Shown here: piece by piece, positions 7,015-47,473 of the stretch
How the letters are laid out: every line of letters begins with the position of its first letter
How positions within the stretch are numbered: the first letter of the stretch is position 1
DNA from: Beijerinckiaceae bacterium
Lineage (GTDB): Bacteria > Pseudomonadota > Alphaproteobacteria > Rhizobiales > Beijerinckiaceae
DNA length: 64,000 nt
Direction: 5' to 3'
Assembly (NCBI GenBank): GCA_024304885.1
Contig: JALJOM010000008.1
Location: 310,001 to 374,000, forward strand
Made by a program: the position numbers and the translations under genes
Notes under the pieces: generated by a model
Told to the model about the DNA's origin: nothing
The model's input: only the letters and a program-made list of their open reading frames with translations
Database searches by the model: none

Positions 7015-7495
7015 TGCCCAATTTCGCACGTGCCTGTGGTCGTGTGTCGGTTGGCGGGGATCCGGACAAGAGGCCGGTCAACCGCCTGAAAGAGGACCGA
7101 CAGCCGGAGGCGAACCGGCGAACCCCGCCAAACGGGGGACGCGACTTAAAGCAACGACGGACCGGGCTTTTTCGTCTCTGTCGGCCTCCAAAGCCGGCGT
7201 ACCGAAGAGGCTTGTCTTTCTTGCCGGGCGTGCGGATCGGGACTCCTCCCGTTCCAATCGATGGCCATGACCGCTCGGGGCGCGCCGCCTAGGCGCGCGC
7301 CCGCGAGCCGCATGTCCAACGGCGCTGCATCGGACCGCGCGCTCCGCGAGGCTTCGCCTCGTGGAAACGAGCGGTCGCGGATGGCGGGTCAACTCGACCG
7401 CTCGCGTCTCCACAACGCGGGCGGGATCAGCATCGCCATTCACCCCGAAGCTCGTTCTCGGTGCGGTGAGCCGCACCCTTCGAAGGGATGCCGCG
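7015..7495 (+). promoter_or_regulatory. Long structured leader of ornithine decarboxylase (speF-motif candidate)
   Basis: There is no convincing gene in the 682 bp between the glucan gene and the decarboxylase. The transcribed part shows several clean hairpins. They are GCGCGCC with GGCGCGC around 7280-7298, CGAGGC/GCCTCG (7347-7361) with a 3-nt loop, GAGCGGTCG (7369-7377) pairing perfectly with CGACCGCTC (7395-7403), and GGTGCGG (7460-7466) pairing with CCGCACC (7471-7477) just upstream of the ribosome binding site. Alphaproteobacterial ornithine decarboxylase genes are known to carry the speF RNA motif in this position. I infer that this leader is such an element but cannot confirm its consensus by eye. 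Confidence 0.4.
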
Positions 7496-36227: not shown

Positions 36228-38414
36228 CTAGAAACGGCCGGCGAAGGTGACCCGGAACGCCCGCGGCTCGACCGGATGCAGCACACGGTCCATCACGCCG
36301 TTGGCGCAGGCTGCGAGAAAGTTCGGCGCGTCGGACCCGCCCGCCCGGCAAGCCTGGAACAAGGGATCCGACGGGATGAAGGATCCATAGGCATAAGTGA
36401 TCTGGTCGGAGCGGCTGTTGGTGAGGTTGAAGGCGTCGAGCTGAAGCGTGAAGCCGTTCTCGAAGTGATAGCCCACATGGGCGTTGAGCATCCCTGTGGC
36501 GGGTGACTGGAAGGCGCCGTCCTCGGTCAACGGGCGCGCGCCGAAGTAGCGGAACCGAATGCCGCCGAACCATCCCAAGGCTTCGCCGATGGTGGCGCCA
36601 GCCGACGCGATGATGGCCGGGGCGCCGGGAATATAGTTGCCCGCCGCATTGCCGAGCTGCGCCTCGGGGAAGCCTGCGAGCTCTTCGAAGGCCGCCGCTT
36701 GGTCGCGATCATATCCGAGGAACCGTGCCCGCGTGACCGCGAGATCGGCTTCGATATCGAGCCAGGGCACGGGCCTATAGTCGTTGGTGAACTCGACGCC
36801 GATACGCCGGCTCGGCCGGCTCGCCTCGGTGGTTCCCGCGTCACCGACGAAGAGAATCTCCGACGCCGAATCGAGGACGAAAACGGCGACCGAGCTGTTC
36901 AGCCCGTCGATCGCCTGGGTGCGAAACCCGGCCTCGGCGCCCTGGGTCCCGACCAGGAAAGGCGCCGGGCTCAGCCTGTCGGTGATCGAGAGAGGATCGA
37001 CCTTCGCCGTCACGCCGCGGATGTCGTTGCTGTGGAATCCACTCCCGAGATTGAGAAAATATTCGGTCTTGTCGAACGGCCCGAAAACGAGGCTCAACTT
37101 GGGGTTGGCGATGAACGCGTTGGGCGTGCCCGAGTTCAGGGAATTGCTCACCGCATCGACGGAGCCTGCGAAGAAGTTCCCGCGCCAGCCGAAGTTGGTC
37201 TTGAGCCACTCGTTCCAGAAAAGCGTGGTCTGCGCGTAGAATCCGAGATTGCCTTCCTTCACCCTGTCGCTTCGCGTGAGTGACGAGAACTGGCGCCGGA
37301 ACGTGTTCTGCAGGCTCAGATTGATCGCGTCGAACCGCGTCTGGATGCCGAACTCCGTCTCCGACGGAATGCCCCCGAAATCGCTCTTGATCCTGTGCAG
37401 CACGCTGGCTCCGGCGGTCACTCGCTGATCCTGCTGCTGGAACTGATCACCGAACAGGGGATCGCCCTCGGGCGTGCCCGCGTCGTTCAGGAAATAGGTG
37501 AAATTGTTCCACAGGTTGAGCGAGCTCTTGATCGCGTAGAACGAAGCCTGGGTGGTCGCCGCCGGGTGGGTGTGTGCCCAATGCCCCGAGATCGAGTAGC
37601 GTGAGGACGCGCCGCCGTCGGTGGGGTCGATGGCACCGTATCGGCTGACCTCGCGCCGGGTGATCGCCCTGAGCGGGATCTGGTCGGTGGAGTTCCATCG
37701 ATTCGAATAGGCCATGCCGGTCAGGGCGAAGCCATTCTCCGGCGTCCCTTGGCTGTAGCGGATCAGGCCGTTGAGCTTGAAGGCATCGTCCGGGTTGACC
37801 CACGGACCGTCATAGCGCCCGACCTCGCCGGCGGCGAGGAGCGTTCCTTCCCCGAATGCGGTCGTGCCGATGCCGAGATAGCGCTGGTAGTTGAAACTGC
37901 CGACCGTCGGCTTGAAATACTGGCCGTTGAAGCCGTCGACGAGGCTGATGCGGATGGCCCCGACCGAGGAGAAATCGCCCTCCTCGGCGAAATAGGGACC
38001 CTTCTTCACAGTGACGTCGCCGATGAGCTCCGGGATCAGGAAGTTGAGGTCGGCATAGCCCTGCCCATGGCCGTGGGTGACCATGTTGATCGGCATGCCG
38101 TCGAGCCAGATCGCGAGGTCGGTCCCGTGGTCGAGGTTGAAGCCGCGCAGGAAATATTGGTTGGCCTTGCCTTCGCCGCTGTGCTGGGTGATGATGAGGC
38201 CGGGCACGACCTCGAGCGATTCCGCGGGCCGCAGGAAGATGCGCTCGTTGACCTCGGTTCCGGAGAAGCGCATCTCGCTCGCGGCGATCGTCGGCATGGA
38301 GGTCGCGCGGCTCCCCTCGCCGGCGGCGACCTCGATCGTGGGCAGCGTCACTGCTGCGTCGTGCGCCTCGGCCGTGCCGGCCGTGCCGAGTAGCAACGCG
38401 AGGCCGCCGAGCAT
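36228..38414 (-). CDS. TonB-dependent outer-membrane receptor 1 (predicted metal uptake)
   Basis: A 728-residue receptor (from the ATG at 38414). A signal-like segment (MLGGLALLLGTAGTAEAHD) precedes a TonB-box region (AVTLPTIEVAAG), a plug domain with ESLEVVPGLIITQHSGEGKANQYFLRGFNLDHGTDLAIWLDG and NMVTHGHGQGYADLNFLIPEL, and a 22-strand barrel ending in the aromatic RVTFAGRF terminus typical for BAM insertion. The H-G-H motif in the plug is notable for metal transport. The frame is open 104 codons upstream through a family A repeat; a TTG eight codons before the ATG would give a better n-region. It is the last gene of an operon behind a NikR-type regulator and shares high similarity with receptor 2. 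Confidence 0.92.
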   Translation of the reverse strand: MLGGLALLLGTAGTAEAHDAAVTLPTIEVAAGEGSRATSMPTIAASEMRFSGTEVNERIFLRPAESLEVVPGLIITQHSGEGKANQYFLRGFNLDHGTDLAIWLDGMPINMVTHGHGQGYADLNFLIPELIGDVTVKKGPYFAEEGDFSSVGAIRISLVDGFNGQYFKPTVGSFNYQRYLGIGTTAFGEGTLLAAGEVGRYDGPWVNPDDAFKLNGLIRYSQGTPENGFALTGMAYSNRWNSTDQIPLRAITRREVSRYGAIDPTDGGASSRYSISGHWAHTHPAATTQASFYAIKSSLNLWNNFTYFLNDAGTPEGDPLFGDQFQQQDQRVTAGASVLHRIKSDFGGIPSETEFGIQTRFDAINLSLQNTFRRQFSSLTRSDRVKEGNLGFYAQTTLFWNEWLKTNFGWRGNFFAGSVDAVSNSLNSGTPNAFIANPKLSLVFGPFDKTEYFLNLGSGFHSNDIRGVTAKVDPLSITDRLSPAPFLVGTQGAEAGFRTQAIDGLNSSVAVFVLDSASEILFVGDAGTTEASRPSRRIGVEFTNDYRPVPWLDIEADLAVTRARFLGYDRDQAAAFEELAGFPEAQLGNAAGNYIPGAPAIIASAGATIGEALGWFGGIRFRYFGARPLTEDGAFQSPATGMLNAHVGYHFENGFTLQLDAFNLTNSRSDQITYAYGSFIPSDPLFQACRAGGSDAPNFLAACANGVMDRVLHPVEPRAFRVTFAGRF

Positions 38415-38475
38415 CGTCGTCTGCAAGAGGCGGTCGCGCAATCTCGTCCCGCTCCGTGGGACGACCGCGTCACGA

Positions 38476-38578
38476 GAGCGGTTTCCGATCCGGTTGAATT
38501 GGAAATCTGCTCTACATTCTTGTCTTGTCGCAATTTCGCGACGTGAACCGATGTCCGGTTCGCTGGAAATTGCTCTAG
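38476..38578. repeat. Family A two-hairpin repeat, near-consensus copy
   Basis: GAGCGGTTTCCGATCCGG...CTGCTCTACATTCTTG, TCTTGTCGCAATTTCGCG and CCGGTTCGCTGGAAATTGC followed by TCTAG. This is one of the best-preserved copies. It fills about a quarter of the 420-bp gap between nikR and receptor 1; the rest includes an AT-rich patch near 38750-38790 that could carry a promoter. Confidence 0.85.
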
Positions 38579-38834
38579 CTGCACGAGCATCCGCGACATG
38601 CGTCGGCATCCCGAGCTCGGGCGCTCCCGCTCTCGACGTTGGCACGACATCGTTGCGAATGTCCGACAAGCGATCCTCCCGGAGCTTTCGCCGAGCTCGG
38701 TCACCGATACGGCCGCCCGGATCCATGGGGAGAAGCTACTGGCCCCGATTTCACGATGTAAGAGGAAAATCTAAAAAGCTCATACAAAGATCGCGAGCGT
38801 TGCCGATTTGCATCACGTCGACGCTGGTTCCGGG

Positions 38835-39308
38835 TCACGCATGGCGGACGTGGATATGCGAATGGCGTCGGGGATGATCCTTGCCGTGGGCATGGCTTTC
38901 CTCCCGGACCTCGACGGGAACGGCGACGAGGCGGCCGTGCCGAACGCCCCGCTCGGAGATGATCTCTTCCGCGAAGCGATGAACCTCGTGCGTCGCACCG
39001 CGCAAAAGCGCGACCTCCATGCAGCTCGCATGGTCGAGACGGACCTGCAGTGCCGCGACCGACAGGTCGTGGTGATGATGATGCGCGTCGGCGAGGCGCT
39101 TGGCGAGCTCGCGGACGGTGTGATCGTAGACATAAACGAGCGCGGCGACGCAATCGCCGCCATCGGTCGACTCGGTGCGCGCTTGCTGCATTCCGGCGCG
39201 GGCGAGGTCGCGAATGGCCTCGGACCGATTATGATAGCCGCGTGCCTTCATGAAGCGGTCTAAATCCGCGGCGAGGTCGTCGTCGAGCGTTACCGTGACT
39301 CGTTGCAT
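38835..39308 (-). CDS. NikR-type ribbon-helix-helix metalloregulator with altered nickel site
   Basis: A 157-residue regulator. The N-terminal ribbon-helix-helix is intact (MQRVTVTLDDDLAADLDRF...GYHNRSEAIRDLAR), and the C-terminal ACT-like domain is clear (VAALVYVYDHTVRELAKRL, HHHHHDLSVAAL, FAEEIISERGVRHGRL). Aligned with E. coli NikR, the high-affinity ligands His76 and Cys95 are kept (HHHHHDLS, HASCMEV). His87 and His89 are replaced by Gln and Arg (AALQVRLDH instead of ATLHVHINH). A His-rich tail (SHAHGKDHPRRHSHIHVRH) extends the C-terminus. The ATG at 39308 is preferred over an adjacent TTG. It is located between two TonB receptor genes on the same strand, 18 bp from the upstream one, so it likely controls them. 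Ligand specificity is uncertain. Confidence 0.9.
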   Translation of the reverse strand: MQRVTVTLDDDLAADLDRFMKARGYHNRSEAIRDLARAGMQQARTESTDGGDCVAALVYVYDHTVRELAKRLADAHHHHHDLSVAALQVRLDHASCMEVALLRGATHEVHRFAEEIISERGVRHGRLVAVPVEVREESHAHGKDHPRRHSHIHVRHA

Positions 39309-39326: not shown

Positions 39327-41531
39327 TCAGAACCGCCCCGCGACGGTCAGGCGGAGCGCGAGAGGCTCGACCGGGTGCAGCACCCGGTCCATCACGCCAT
39401 TGGCGCAGACCGCGGCGGGCACGCCGCTCTTTCCGGATGCAGGATAGCAGGCATTGTACAAGGAATCCGTCCTCAGGAACGATCCATAGGCGAAGGTGAT
39501 CTGGTCCGACCGGCTGCCCGTCAGGTTGAATCCTTCGAGCTGAAGGAGCCAGCCGTTGTCGAAGCGATAGCCGATCGTCCCGTTGAGGACGCCGAGCGCG
39601 GGGGAGCGAAACACATTGTCCTCGGTCAGCGGCCTGACCCCGAAATAGCGATAGCGAAGGCCGGCGAACCAGCCTGTCGGCTCGCCGAGCGTGAAACCCG
39701 CCGAGGCGACGATCGTCGGCGCGCCGGGAATGAAGTTGCCGGGTCCATTGCCGATCTGCGCCTCGGGGACGCCGGCGAGCTCCGCGAAGGCTGCCGCCTG
39801 GTCGAGATCGAAGCCGCGGAAGCGCGAGTAGGTATAGGCGAGGTCGGCGCCGAGATCGAGCCAGGGGACCGGCCGGTAGTCGTTGGTGAATTCCACGCCG
39901 ATGCGCCGGCTGGCCCGGCTCGGCAACGTCGATCCCACATCGCCCTGGAACAGGATCTCCGAGGCGGAGTCGAGGATGAACAGGCTGAGCGAGCTCGTGA
40001 GGCCCTCGATCGCGAAGGTCCGCAGCCCGACCTCCGCCCCTTGCGTGCGCACCAGGAAGGGCGAGGCCGGGACCCGGACCGAAGGGTCGAGCGGATCCGC
40101 CGTGATCGTGACGGAGCGCGCGTCGTTGCTGTGGAACCCCGCACCGAGATCGAGGAAGAGCTCGGTCTTCTCGAACGGGCCGAAGATCAGGCTCGTCTTG
40201 GGGCTCGCGATGAAGGCCGTGGGCGTCCCGGAGTTCGCGGGATTGCTCGATGCGACCGAGGCGGTGAAGACGTCTCCTCGCCAGCCGAAATTGGCTCGGA
40301 ACCAATCGCTGACAAAAAGCGTCGTGTCGCCGTAGATCCCGACGCTGCCTTCCCACACCTTGTCGTCGCGGATCGTGCCGAGGAACCTCCGCGCGACCGT
40401 ATTGGTGAGGGAGAGATCGATCGAATCGAGCCGAGCCTGCAGGCCCACCTCGGTGAGGGTCGGCATGTCGCCGAGCTCGCTCCGGAGCCTGTGCGCGACA
40501 TTCACGCCGGCGGTCCAGCGACCGTCGTGCTGGCGGGTCTGGTCGCCGTTCACGGGATCGTTGAGGAAATAGGTGAAGTTGCCGTAGAGATCGAGCGCGC
40601 TTCGGATCGCGTAGAAATCGACCGATGTGGTGGCGTCGGCCTCGGTGCGCGCAAGGCGCCCCGAGAGGGAAAACCGCGCGATGTTGCCGCCGTCGGACGG
40701 GTCGAGCGAGCCGAAGAGGCCGAGAAGTCCCGAGCTGATCGCCCTCGCCGGGATCTGGTCGGTTGCGGTCCAGCGGTTGGCGTAGGCCATGCCGGTGAGC
40801 GACAGCCCGTCGGCGGGCGTGCCCTGGCTGTAGCGAACGAGACCGTTCAGCTTGAAGGCATCGTCGGGGACGACCCAAGGGCCGTCGTAGCGCAAGATCT
40901 CGCCGGCGACGAGGAGCTCGCCCTCTCCGAGCTTCGTGTGGCCGATGCCCAGGGTGCGCAGGTAGCCGAAGCTCCCGAGGGTCGCTTTCACCAATTGCCC
41001 GTCGAAACCGTCGAGCAGGTTGATGTGGATCGCCCCGACCGAGGAGAAATCACCCTCGCTCGCGAAATAGGGTCCTTTCCTCACGTCGATCGAGGAGATC
41101 AGCTCGGGGATGAGGAAGTTGAGGTCGGCATAGCCCTGCCCGTGAATGTGGGTGCGCTGGTTGATCGGCATGCCATCCACATAGATGGCGAGGTCGGTGC
41201 CGTGATCGAGGCTGAAGCCGCGCAGAAAATAGAGATTCGCGTGACCCTCGCCGCTGTGCTGAGAGACGATGAGGCCGGGGACGATCTCGAGCGCATCGGC
41301 CGGGCGCGCGAAAACGCGCTCGTTCACCTGCTTGCCGGTGAAGCTCGTCTCGCTCGCCGCCAGCAGCGGCTCGGTGGTCGCCCCGCCGGTCGTGCTCCCC
41401 GTGGACACCTCGATCTCGGGCAGCGTCACCGCTTCGGCCGTCTGCGCCGCGGCGGGCGTCGCGTCGGCGAGGAGGCAACCGAGACAGGCGACAGAGCAGG
41501 CGAGAGCGCGGACCTCGTCAGGCAGGGCCAT
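39327..41531 (-). CDS. TonB-dependent outer-membrane receptor 2 (predicted metal uptake)
   Basis: A 734-residue receptor with a signal peptide (MALPDEVRALACSVACLGCLLADATPAAAQ), TonB-box region (AVTLPEIEVSTG), plug (DALEIVPGLIVSQHSGEGHANLYFLRGFSLDHGTDLAIYVDGMPINQRTHIHGQGYADLNF) and barrel ending RLTVAGRF. It is strongly similar to receptor 1 across its whole length, including the D-x-M-P-I-N and H-x-H-G-Q-G-Y-A-D-L-N-F plug motifs and the C-terminal ANGVMDRVLHPVEP block, so the two arose by duplication. It is the first gene of the receptor 2-nikR-receptor 1 unit, with an AT-rich operator-like site upstream. The nickel or cobalt role is inferred from the NikR neighbour. Confidence 0.92.
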   Translation of the reverse strand: MALPDEVRALACSVACLGCLLADATPAAAQTAEAVTLPEIEVSTGSTTGGATTEPLLAASETSFTGKQVNERVFARPADALEIVPGLIVSQHSGEGHANLYFLRGFSLDHGTDLAIYVDGMPINQRTHIHGQGYADLNFLIPELISSIDVRKGPYFASEGDFSSVGAIHINLLDGFDGQLVKATLGSFGYLRTLGIGHTKLGEGELLVAGEILRYDGPWVVPDDAFKLNGLVRYSQGTPADGLSLTGMAYANRWTATDQIPARAISSGLLGLFGSLDPSDGGNIARFSLSGRLARTEADATTSVDFYAIRSALDLYGNFTYFLNDPVNGDQTRQHDGRWTAGVNVAHRLRSELGDMPTLTEVGLQARLDSIDLSLTNTVARRFLGTIRDDKVWEGSVGIYGDTTLFVSDWFRANFGWRGDVFTASVASSNPANSGTPTAFIASPKTSLIFGPFEKTELFLDLGAGFHSNDARSVTITADPLDPSVRVPASPFLVRTQGAEVGLRTFAIEGLTSSLSLFILDSASEILFQGDVGSTLPSRASRRIGVEFTNDYRPVPWLDLGADLAYTYSRFRGFDLDQAAAFAELAGVPEAQIGNGPGNFIPGAPTIVASAGFTLGEPTGWFAGLRYRYFGVRPLTEDNVFRSPALGVLNGTIGYRFDNGWLLQLEGFNLTGSRSDQITFAYGSFLRTDSLYNACYPASGKSGVPAAVCANGVMDRVLHPVEPLALRLTVAGRF

Positions 41532-41573
41532 CGTGCCGATCCTCGTCACTCCGCTCGGTCGAGCCTTGTGCTG

Positions 41574-41598
41574 TAAAGTTTAGTGCCAGCTAACTTAA
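41574..41598 (-). promoter_or_regulatory. AT-rich imperfect palindrome upstream of receptor 2
   Basis: A 25-bp stretch runs from TAAAGTT (41574-41580) to AACTTAA (41592-41598), with the centre at 41586 and 8 of 12 symmetric pairs complementary. It contrasts with GC-rich flanks and sits 43 bp upstream of the receptor 2 ATG. It does not match the E. coli NikR operator (GTATGA-N16-TCATAC). I suggest it as the operator of the NikR-like protein. Confidence 0.4.
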
Positions 41599-41682
41599 GG
41601 TGTCGTCGAGCGGCGGGTCAACGAGCATCGGACGGGACGAGGAGATGCGCCGCGACCTGTTGCGCGCGGGCCACGGCGGGGG

Positions 41683-45888: not shown

Positions 45889-45958
45889 CCCGCTCTGAAC
45901 TTGTGGAATCGATCACGTTCATGAATTTGTGATTCTAACCGAATTCATCGTGATCTAG
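45889..45958. repeat. Family B palindromic repeat, copy 2
   Basis: CCCGCTCTGAACTTGTGGAA, then GATCACG...CGTGATC with an inner pair TTCATGAATT/GAATTCAT, ending CTAG. That CTAG is also the first base group of the family A copy that follows, so the two elements abut or share the junction. Confidence 0.8.
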
Positions 45959-46090
45959 AGCAATTTCCAGCGAAGTGGACACCGGTTCGCGTTTCGATCT
46001 CGATGTCTCGACAGATCGACATCGATGTGAAATTGCGACAAAACAAGAATGTAGAGCCGGTTTCCGCTTCAATCGGATCGGAAGCCGCTC
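45955..46090. repeat. Family A repeat, inverted, with internal 37-bp palindromic insertion
   Basis: Begins CTAGAGCAATTTCCAGCGAA and ends CCGCTTCAATCGGATCGGAA...CCGCTC. Between CGGTTCGCGTTTCGAT and GAAATTGCGACAAAACAAG there are extra bases containing CGATCTCGATGTC and GACATCGATG, a small palindrome. It fills the gap between the catalase remnant and the DUF1269 gene. Confidence 0.8.
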
Positions 46091-46946: not shown

Positions 46947-47276
46947 GTGCGGACGATCCTGACGAGTCTCGAAGACTCGAAAGCCGAAGACATCGTCACC
47001 ATCGACCTGCACGGCAAGACCAACATCGCCGACGCCATGATCATCGCGTCCGGCCGCTCCAACATTCACGTCGGGGCGATCGCCGATCGCGTCATCAAGG
47101 CGTTCAAGGACACGCAGCACGTGGCTCCGCGGGTCGAGGGCTTGCAGAACTGCGACTGGGTCCTGATCGATGCGGGCGACGTGATCGTCCACATCTTCCG
47201 GCCCGAGGTCCGCGAGTTCTACAATCTCGAGAAGATGTGGGGCGTCGATCGTCCGGGCGAGCGCCGCGCGAGCTAG
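46947..47276 (+). CDS. rsfS: Ribosome silencing factor RsfS
   Basis: Binds uL14 and blocks 30S-50S joining when nutrients are low. From the GTG at 46947 the product has 109 residues: SKAEDIVTIDLHGKTNIADAMIIASGRSNIHVGAIADRVIKAFKD, then VEGLQNCDWVLIDAGDVIVHIFRPEVREFYNLEKMWG, a complete RsfS domain. The start is uncertain: no ATG is in frame nearby. A TTG at 46878 would add 23 residues, and neither has a convincing ribosome binding site. Its TAG stop lies inside a family A repeat. rlmH follows on the same strand after the repeat, the standard rsfS-rlmH order. Confidence 0.93.
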   Translation: MRTILTSLEDSKAEDIVTIDLHGKTNIADAMIIASGRSNIHVGAIADRVIKAFKDTQHVAPRVEGLQNCDWVLIDAGDVIVHIFRPEVREFYNLEKMWGVDRPGERRAS

Positions 47277-47473
47277 AGCCATTTCCAGCGAAGTGGCCTC
47301 CGGTTCGCATTTCGCCGGCGATGAATCGCAATAGCGGCATCCCGCTCTAAGCTCTTGGAATCGATCACGATTTATGACCTTGGATCGATTCGAACCAAAG
47401 TCATCGTGATCTAGGCGAAAATTCGCCAAGACAAAGATGTAAAGCGGCGTTCCGACCGGACCGGAACGCGCTC
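47273..47473. repeat. Family A repeat split by a nested family B element
   Basis: A 201-bp composite. CTAGAGCCATTTCCAGCGAA... through CCGGTTCGCATTTCGCC is the left part of an inverted family A copy. 47341-47414 is family B copy 3 (CCCGCTCTAAGCTCTTGGAA, GATCACGATTTATGAC, AAAGTCATCGTGATC, CTAG). 47415-47473 is the remaining family A part (GCCAAGACAAAGATG...CCGGAACGCGCTC). The first bases provide the rsfS stop codon. Confidence 0.8.

Follow-up and report, generated by a model that had tools for sequence, protein, structure and literature searches.

The window analyzed here, a stretch of 64,000 nt from a bacterium that appears to be a member of the methane-eating genus Methylocapsa, carries the sole NikR found by a search of that genome, and in this protein two of the four nickel ligands of the classical sensor are replaced. 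Two ligands are lost but a predicted NikR operator and an uptake gene are kept beside the gene, and the protein may therefore sense nickel differently or not need it. We give an even chance to the reading that this ligand-altered NikR controls the downstream TonB-dependent receptor T2 through the box between the two genes, with a remodeled and weaker response to nickel (or cobalt).

The nikR gene and its ligand positions

The nikR gene (Table 1) is read in the reverse direction from an ATG start and encodes 157 a.a., comprising a ribbon-helix-helix domain, a NikR_C domain with Gln and Arg in place of His87 and His89, and a histidine-rich tail. Both domains passed their Pfam cut-offs (RHH_1, 33.3 bits against 20.5; NikR_C, 85.9 bits against 22), as did the product against the NCBIfam models for NikR, clearly in the case of the equivalog model NF002815 (191.3 bits; cut-off 83), at 127.8 bits for NF003381 (cut-off 105), and barely for TIGR02793 (177.7 bits; cut-off 175.45). 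These matches bear out the earlier note, which had called the product a NikR homolog, and the domain order and the position of the protein in the tree, among canonical NikRs, are those of the family.

Table 1. Features of the nikR locus, in window positions.
Feature	Position	Strand	Basis
TonB-dependent receptor T2, predicted NikR target	36228..38726	-	ORF, Pfam
Predicted NikR operator GTATGA-N16-TCTTAC (read towards T2), in the T2 promoter	38758..38785	-	motif scan, one mismatch
nikR variant gene, stop codon included	38835..39308	-	Pfam/NCBIfam matches, alignment to E. coli NikR, codons
His-rich C-terminal tail, last 26 codons, 7 His; part of a predicted beta-hairpin	38838..38915	-	residue count, AlphaFold2 model
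Altered ligand strand, codons 87-92 = L-Q-V-R-L-D, CAG and CGT for the canonical His codons	39033..39050	-	read from codons/sequence
TonB-dependent receptor T1, tandem sister of T2	39327..41549	-	ORF, Pfam, tree
Other inverted repeat TAAGTTAG-N6-CTAAACTTTA, in the T1 promoter	41574..41597	-	genome motif scan

In an alignment with E. coli NikR (the chain in 1q5v), the metal domain is free of gaps, and the residue numbers run one ahead of those in E. coli because one additional residue precedes this domain. Gln88 (CAG) stands in the column of His87 and Arg90 (CGT) in that of His89, with His77 and Cys96 in the columns of His76 and Cys95, and the alignment and the codons thereby agree with the earlier reading of two ligands replaced and two kept. 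In E. coli numbering, which we use for these columns from here on, the square-planar nickel site is built from His76′, His87, His89, and Cys95, of which only His76 and Cys95 are present. A nickel-responsive NikR with such a site is defined as a homotetramer whose metal sites span the dimer interface and whose DNA binding depends on nickel, with affinities in the nanomolar to picomolar range. The same column check found Glu30 and Asp34 of the second, low-affinity site to be kept, along with Arg3, Thr5, and Thr7, which we take to be DNA contacts. The genome contains matches to the [NiFe]-hydrogenase large subunit and therefore has a use for nickel; no match to the urease alpha subunit was found in it.

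The predicted operator and the two flanking receptors

The genes cobB, T1, nikR, and T2 follow one another in this order on the same strand, with nikR 18 bases after T1, and an NCBIfam scan located both cobB and cbiD upstream of T1. Pfam assigned the two genes that flank nikR to the TonB-dependent receptors, in line with the earlier note, which had placed nikR between two such genes and linked it to them; the two are sister copies (support 97) with 64% identity.

Between nikR and T2 lies a box matching 11 of the 12 bases of GTATGA-N16-TCATAC, the type of operator expected of the NikR family near a metal-uptake gene. A scan of the window for this pattern with up to three mismatches returned eight matches, compared to 6.3 expected by chance, so that only the one-mismatch site before T2 stands out. 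Using GTAWGA-N16-TCATAC, in which the pattern was loosened (W) after the window site had been seen, this site was the only zero-mismatch place in the whole genome, and there were two further places at one mismatch; the counts at two mismatches (30+27) were near those of the control (20+15). One of the two further places lies at the start of a frame and the other downstream of a frame which, from reading their sequences, we take to be trmJ-like and mtnA-like, respectively, and given these locations we treated both as chance matches and not as NikR targets. Across 1.06 Mb of loci, 46 boxes were found within one mismatch, compared to none for the reversed pattern.

The first ATG of T2 lies at 38726, and by our own count a signal-peptide-like start occurs near 38414. 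With the box in its promoter and kin that adjoin canonical nikR genes, T2 is predicted from sequence to be a nickel TonB receptor under the control of NikR. We also observed an interspersed repeat (CTAGAGCAATTTCCAGCGAA...) at 45949-46023 and 47267-47341 and, by eye, at 38440-38600, in the interval from the NikR box to the probable start of T2.

The promoter of T1 differs from that of T2. The earlier note had proposed footprinting the region 41550-41620, and an operator of NikR there was not supported: the region has no NikR box within three mismatches and contains a different inverted repeat, TAAGTTAG-N6-CTAAACTTTA. This repeat has one other genome match within three mismatches (at two mismatches; L167, 1501-1524), which is located between DtxR-type and Fur-type regulator genes. 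For this reason, we set it aside as probably the site of another regulator, and manganese or iron may be the signal for T1. Control of T1 by B12 was likewise rejected, as no riboswitch was found in the window at Rfam gathering scores. The only Rfam matches, to the alphaproteobacterial sRNA ar45 and the speF leader, sit side by side at 7016-7318 on the forward strand.

Ligand-altered NikRs in the genus and beyond

Of the 15 genus genomes, 5 have a NikR match: four of the same type as the window protein (the window, L031, L032, and L033; hereafter the Q clade) and one, L042, in which Thr replaces Cys95. A tree computed without the ligand columns groups the four Q-type proteins in a single clade (support 97), placed among canonical NikRs. 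Gln87 (CAG) is common to the four, but position 89 is Arg (CGT) in the window and Methylocapsa acidiphila and His (CAT) in M. aurea and bog_942, which indicates that His87 was lost first and that His89 was either lost twice or lost once and then regained. The earlier question of whether a Gln/Arg pair defines a clade always linked to TonB receptors can thus be answered in part: Gln87 does define a clade, while Arg89 occurs in only half of it, and an intact receptor adjoins nikR at two of the four loci, with remnants in bog_942 and a receptor match somewhere in every one of the four genomes. Judged by a dN/dS of about 0.1 (0.094-0.120 in all six pairs, at dS values of 0.7-1.5 that are therefore partly saturated), nikR in this clade is under purifying selection.

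T2-type receptors were found in five of the 15 genus genomes, namely the four with a Q-type NikR and G198. That of bog_942 consists of fragments only, beside its nikR on a draft contig, and in M. aurea no receptor was found within the stretch examined around nikR, the receptor being on a different contig. Receptor matches hence occur in 4/4 genomes with a Q-type NikR (one as fragments only) against 1/11 without (Fisher p = 0.004, kinship ignored). Boxes of the same altered form as that in the window, [GA]TATGA-N16-[TG]CTTAC, precede a receptor in both M. acidiphila and M. aurea. With the pattern used, the M. acidiphila box (10976-11003 of L033) is the sole zero-mismatch site genome-wide; by the strict pattern it has two mismatches, and it lies about 2.85 kb off. 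For M. aurea, the box lies at 2204 of L195, and the genome has 10 one-mismatch places in all, this one included, against 9+6 in the control. Within the 5 kb examined at each, no box within three mismatches was found at the receptor of G198, which lacks NikR, or at a second M. aurea receptor.

For the wider sample, we gathered 116 NikR reading frames, left out L072, L161, and L162 as duplicates and L085 for a sequence gap, and built the tree from the remaining 112 and E. coli NikR. At the family level, all 51 places besides the window were included; a further 109 came up at the order level, and from these we took 58, chosen to cover genera and low scores, so that the proportions of clades given here are not population figures. 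Nearly all of the 112 come from the same order, one (L034) being from a metagenome contig whose name goes no further than Alphaproteobacteria; a class-wide search gave matches in 17 of 385 genomes. The sample comprises 71 canonical NikRs, 4 of the Q clade, 9 RR (Arg87, Arg89), 11 SPH, 6 QP, 8 HH-T, and 3 giant-tail proteins, and the tree requires a minimum of six changes between His87 with His89 and their loss.

Receptors resembling T1 and T2 adjoin nikR at 21 of the 71 canonical loci (one by a weak match), at two of the four Q loci, and at none of the 37 others. A box (up to two mismatches, within 2.5 kb) was found at 43/71 canonical, 10/11 SPH, 4/8 HH-T, and 0/9 RR loci, at 1/9 of the others, and, by the strict pattern, at 1/4 Q loci (the window). 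Genes of nickel-transport type, meaning NikK, CbiM, CbiQ, or NikA type (named by Pfam for examples and otherwise by phmmer at 60 bits or more, with NikA type assigned on position and an SBP_bac_5 domain alone), lie within 2.6 kb of 11/11 SPH, 45/71 canonical, 2/4 Q, 2/3 giant-tail, 1/8 HH-T, 0/9 RR, and 0/6 QP genes.

The SPH clade (L145, L147, L148, L149, L151, L152, L153, L155, L156, L158, and L160) has gone further than the Q clade. Its members have Ser87, Pro89, and Ser or Ala at position 95, and His76 is lost in 7 of 11, so that three or all four ligands are gone, and a perfect NikR box nevertheless lies near 8 of the 11 genes. These boxes indicate that the window is not the only case of a NikR that lacks the classical site and lies at a NikR operator; by the same token, an operator is no proof of metal sensing.

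The earlier note had also described an added tail with about seven histidines. The count stands (seven in the last 26 residues), while the tail proved to be no peculiarity, given that 45 of the 71 canonical NikRs have at least four tail histidines, and the idea that the tail is a special compensation in the Q clade was dropped because canonical NikRs share it. Six tail histidines are conserved in all four Q-clade proteins. The form HxH-n-HxH is found in 27/27 members of the Q, RR, SPH, and giant-tail clades, which represent few lineages, compared to 31/71 canonical, 1/6 QP, and 0/8 HH-T proteins. An AlphaFold2 single-chain model of the window protein (mean pLDDT 89.5) retains the fold of NikR, its closest solved structure being nickel-bound E. 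coli NikR (2hza_A; TM 0.89 by target length, 1.9 Å), and places the tail, at moderate confidence, in a hairpin with strands at residues 122-139 and 147-154 (pLDDT about 73-78).

Several observations were made on the remaining clades. The HH-T NikR-like proteins (L042, L043, L053, L074, L138-L140, and L143) have Thr in place of Cys95 and have lost His76; L053 has a perfect inverted repeat, GTATTACGAT-N8-ATCGTAATAC, before the gene, with similar repeats in L042, L043, and L074, and a perfect box of the classical NikR kind occurs at L138, that of L053 being of a GTATTA type. L042 adjoins genes for an NMT1-type binding protein and HupE. The RR proteins (L038, L039, L048, L049, L073, and L075-L078), from one genus of the family, have a His-rich tail and neither box nor nickel-transport-type gene nearby; a TPP enzyme lies near L048 and an amidohydrolase near L077, and other RR loci show, by eye, neighbors of a similar kind. 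The giant-tail proteins (L141, L142, and L144) end in tails of 130-135 residues with 47-50 His and have Gln or Arg at position 87; NikK/NikM-type genes adjoin two of the three loci, and a one-mismatch box is present at the remaining one.

Possible modes of sensing and comparison with known systems

The reading we favor builds on the loss of the ligands, the operator sequence, the presence of a sole NikR, the purifying selection, and the receptor family; we infer operator binding, the substrate of the receptor, the metal response, and its weaker affinity. NikR would bind the operator before T2 and control this gene, and H87Q with H89R would dismantle the high-affinity square-planar nickel site. 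A response to nickel (or cobalt) would most likely run through the remaining His76, Cys95, His62, His78, His79, and His92 and the His-rich tail, with a weaker affinity, such that uptake through T2 would be shut off only at higher metal. The retention of His62, His76, His78, His79, His92, Cys95, and Glu97 in all four Q-clade proteins is what continued use of the original pocket with fewer ligands would lead one to expect; outside the clade, His62 is found in 71/71 canonical, 0/9 RR, 0/6 QP, 2/11 SPH, 0/3 giant-tail, and 4/8 HH-T proteins. We favor a remodeled, weaker sensor because these pocket residues are kept, because the model keeps the NikR fold, and because Helicobacter pylori NikR may have nickel at other sites in some structures. 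The titles of its structures 2cad, 2caj, and 3lgh, which place nickel at other than planar sites, suggest by analogy that the NikR fold is able to hold nickel elsewhere. Against metal sensing stands the behavior of E. coli NikR as given in passages of PMC7055735, where the planar site has four ligands (three His and one Cys) and only the four-coordinate planar nickel complex is thought to trigger DNA binding; the window NikR cannot build this complex with the same ligands. More tentatively, the tail hairpin with its HxH and HxHxH strands may, together with His79 and His92, form a working sensor without the square-planar site in the Q clade and more fully in the SPH clade. Both histidines are present in 4/4 Q, 9/9 RR, and 11/11 SPH proteins, with His92 in 0/3 giant-tail and 33/71 canonical ones. 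In that case, NikR operators would remain under nickel control although the protein has given up that site.

The main rival to a remodeled sensor is a repressor that acts without metal, which we consider unlikely. The guanidinium of Arg89 would take the place of nickel, pair with Cys95, Glu97, and His76′, and lock the DNA-binding shape, so that T2 is repressed whatever the metal, or in answer to another signal. An arginine at position 89 evolved independently in the Q and RR clades, and Cys95, Glu97, and His76 are kept in all 13 proteins of the two; the lack of boxes and nickel-transport-type genes at the RR loci also fits an altered signal. However, His89 in M. aurea and bog_942 means that Arg is not a fixed solution of the Q clade, His62 and six tail histidines are conserved throughout the clade, and the target remains a receptor of a NikR-linked family.

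A shift of specificity to Co, Cu, or Zn appears improbable. Methanotrophs use much copper, and the locus is next to cobalamin genes (cobB and cbiD, upstream of T1), but neither gene was found in the three sister loci of the Q clade, no cobalt transporter occurs among the nine Pfam-scanned proteins, the window is devoid of riboswitches at Rfam gathering scores, and the receptor family is one linked to canonical NikR. Passages of PMC7055735 do describe E. coli NikR binding Co, Cu, and Zn in other geometries. Still less probable, in our estimation, is that sensing has moved to the low-affinity site at the domain interface (Glu30 and Asp34 in E. coli), which according to the same source can hold octahedral nickel. 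Both residues are present in 104/104 sequences outside the HH-T clade, including ligand-lost clades with boxes, but they form part of a conserved NRSEAIRD helix, where folding or DNA binding may explain their conservation, and they are also kept in the RR and QP proteins, which have no nickel-transport-type gene nearby. Finally, a gene decaying on its way out once nickel sensing stopped mattering would fit the 10 of 15 genus genomes with no NikR match and the stepwise ligand differences within the Q clade, but is hardly credible given the low dN/dS in every pair and an operator form kept in three species.

The NikR and its boxes (PMC7055735, PMC2667541) and nickel TonB receptors (PMC11247825) are already known, as passages of these papers show. 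No description of a NikR without its ligands at a NikR operator was found in the titles, abstract openings, and passages of open-licence literature, and a half-replaced nickel site with operator and uptake gene kept may, on this slender basis, be new as far as that literature reaches. NikR is a textbook example of a sensor thought to require one exact planar nickel geometry, and natural NikRs that keep operators and uptake genes without the ligands, as in the window clade and the SPH clade, offer a direct test of whether the geometry is needed, another site has taken over, or the protein functions free of metal.

Compared to E. coli NikR (1q5v, 2hza), the window protein shares the domain order, with residues 1-133 aligned, and an operator of the same type as that given in passages of PMC7055735. 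It differs in the Gln/Arg pair, in its 26-residue tail, and in its predicted target, a TonB receptor in place of nikABCDE.

The operators of H. pylori NikR differ from the type seen in the window. The likeness lies in TonB-type uptake targets, as predicted for the window NikR: passages of PMC7055735 name the uptake factors fecA3 and frpB4 as controlled by H. pylori NikR, and the listing in PMC11247825 has both as TonB-dependent nickel transporters. In contrast, H. pylori NikR keeps all four planar ligands (H88, H99, H101, and C107; from passages of PMC6332059). The nickel TonB receptors of the Bll6948 kind, as presented in parts of PMC11247825, are likened to T1 and T2 by gene context: receptor genes adjoin nikR at the canonical loci counted above, many with a box between or nearby, whereas the window has two tandem receptors and a box only at T2. 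The SPH clade resembles the window NikR in its lost ligands, kept operator, HxH-n-HxH tail (11/11), and single NikR match in each of its 11 genomes, but it is a separate clade (support 100), has lost Cys95 as well, and adjoins nickel/cobalt ECF or ABC transporter genes instead of TonB receptors.
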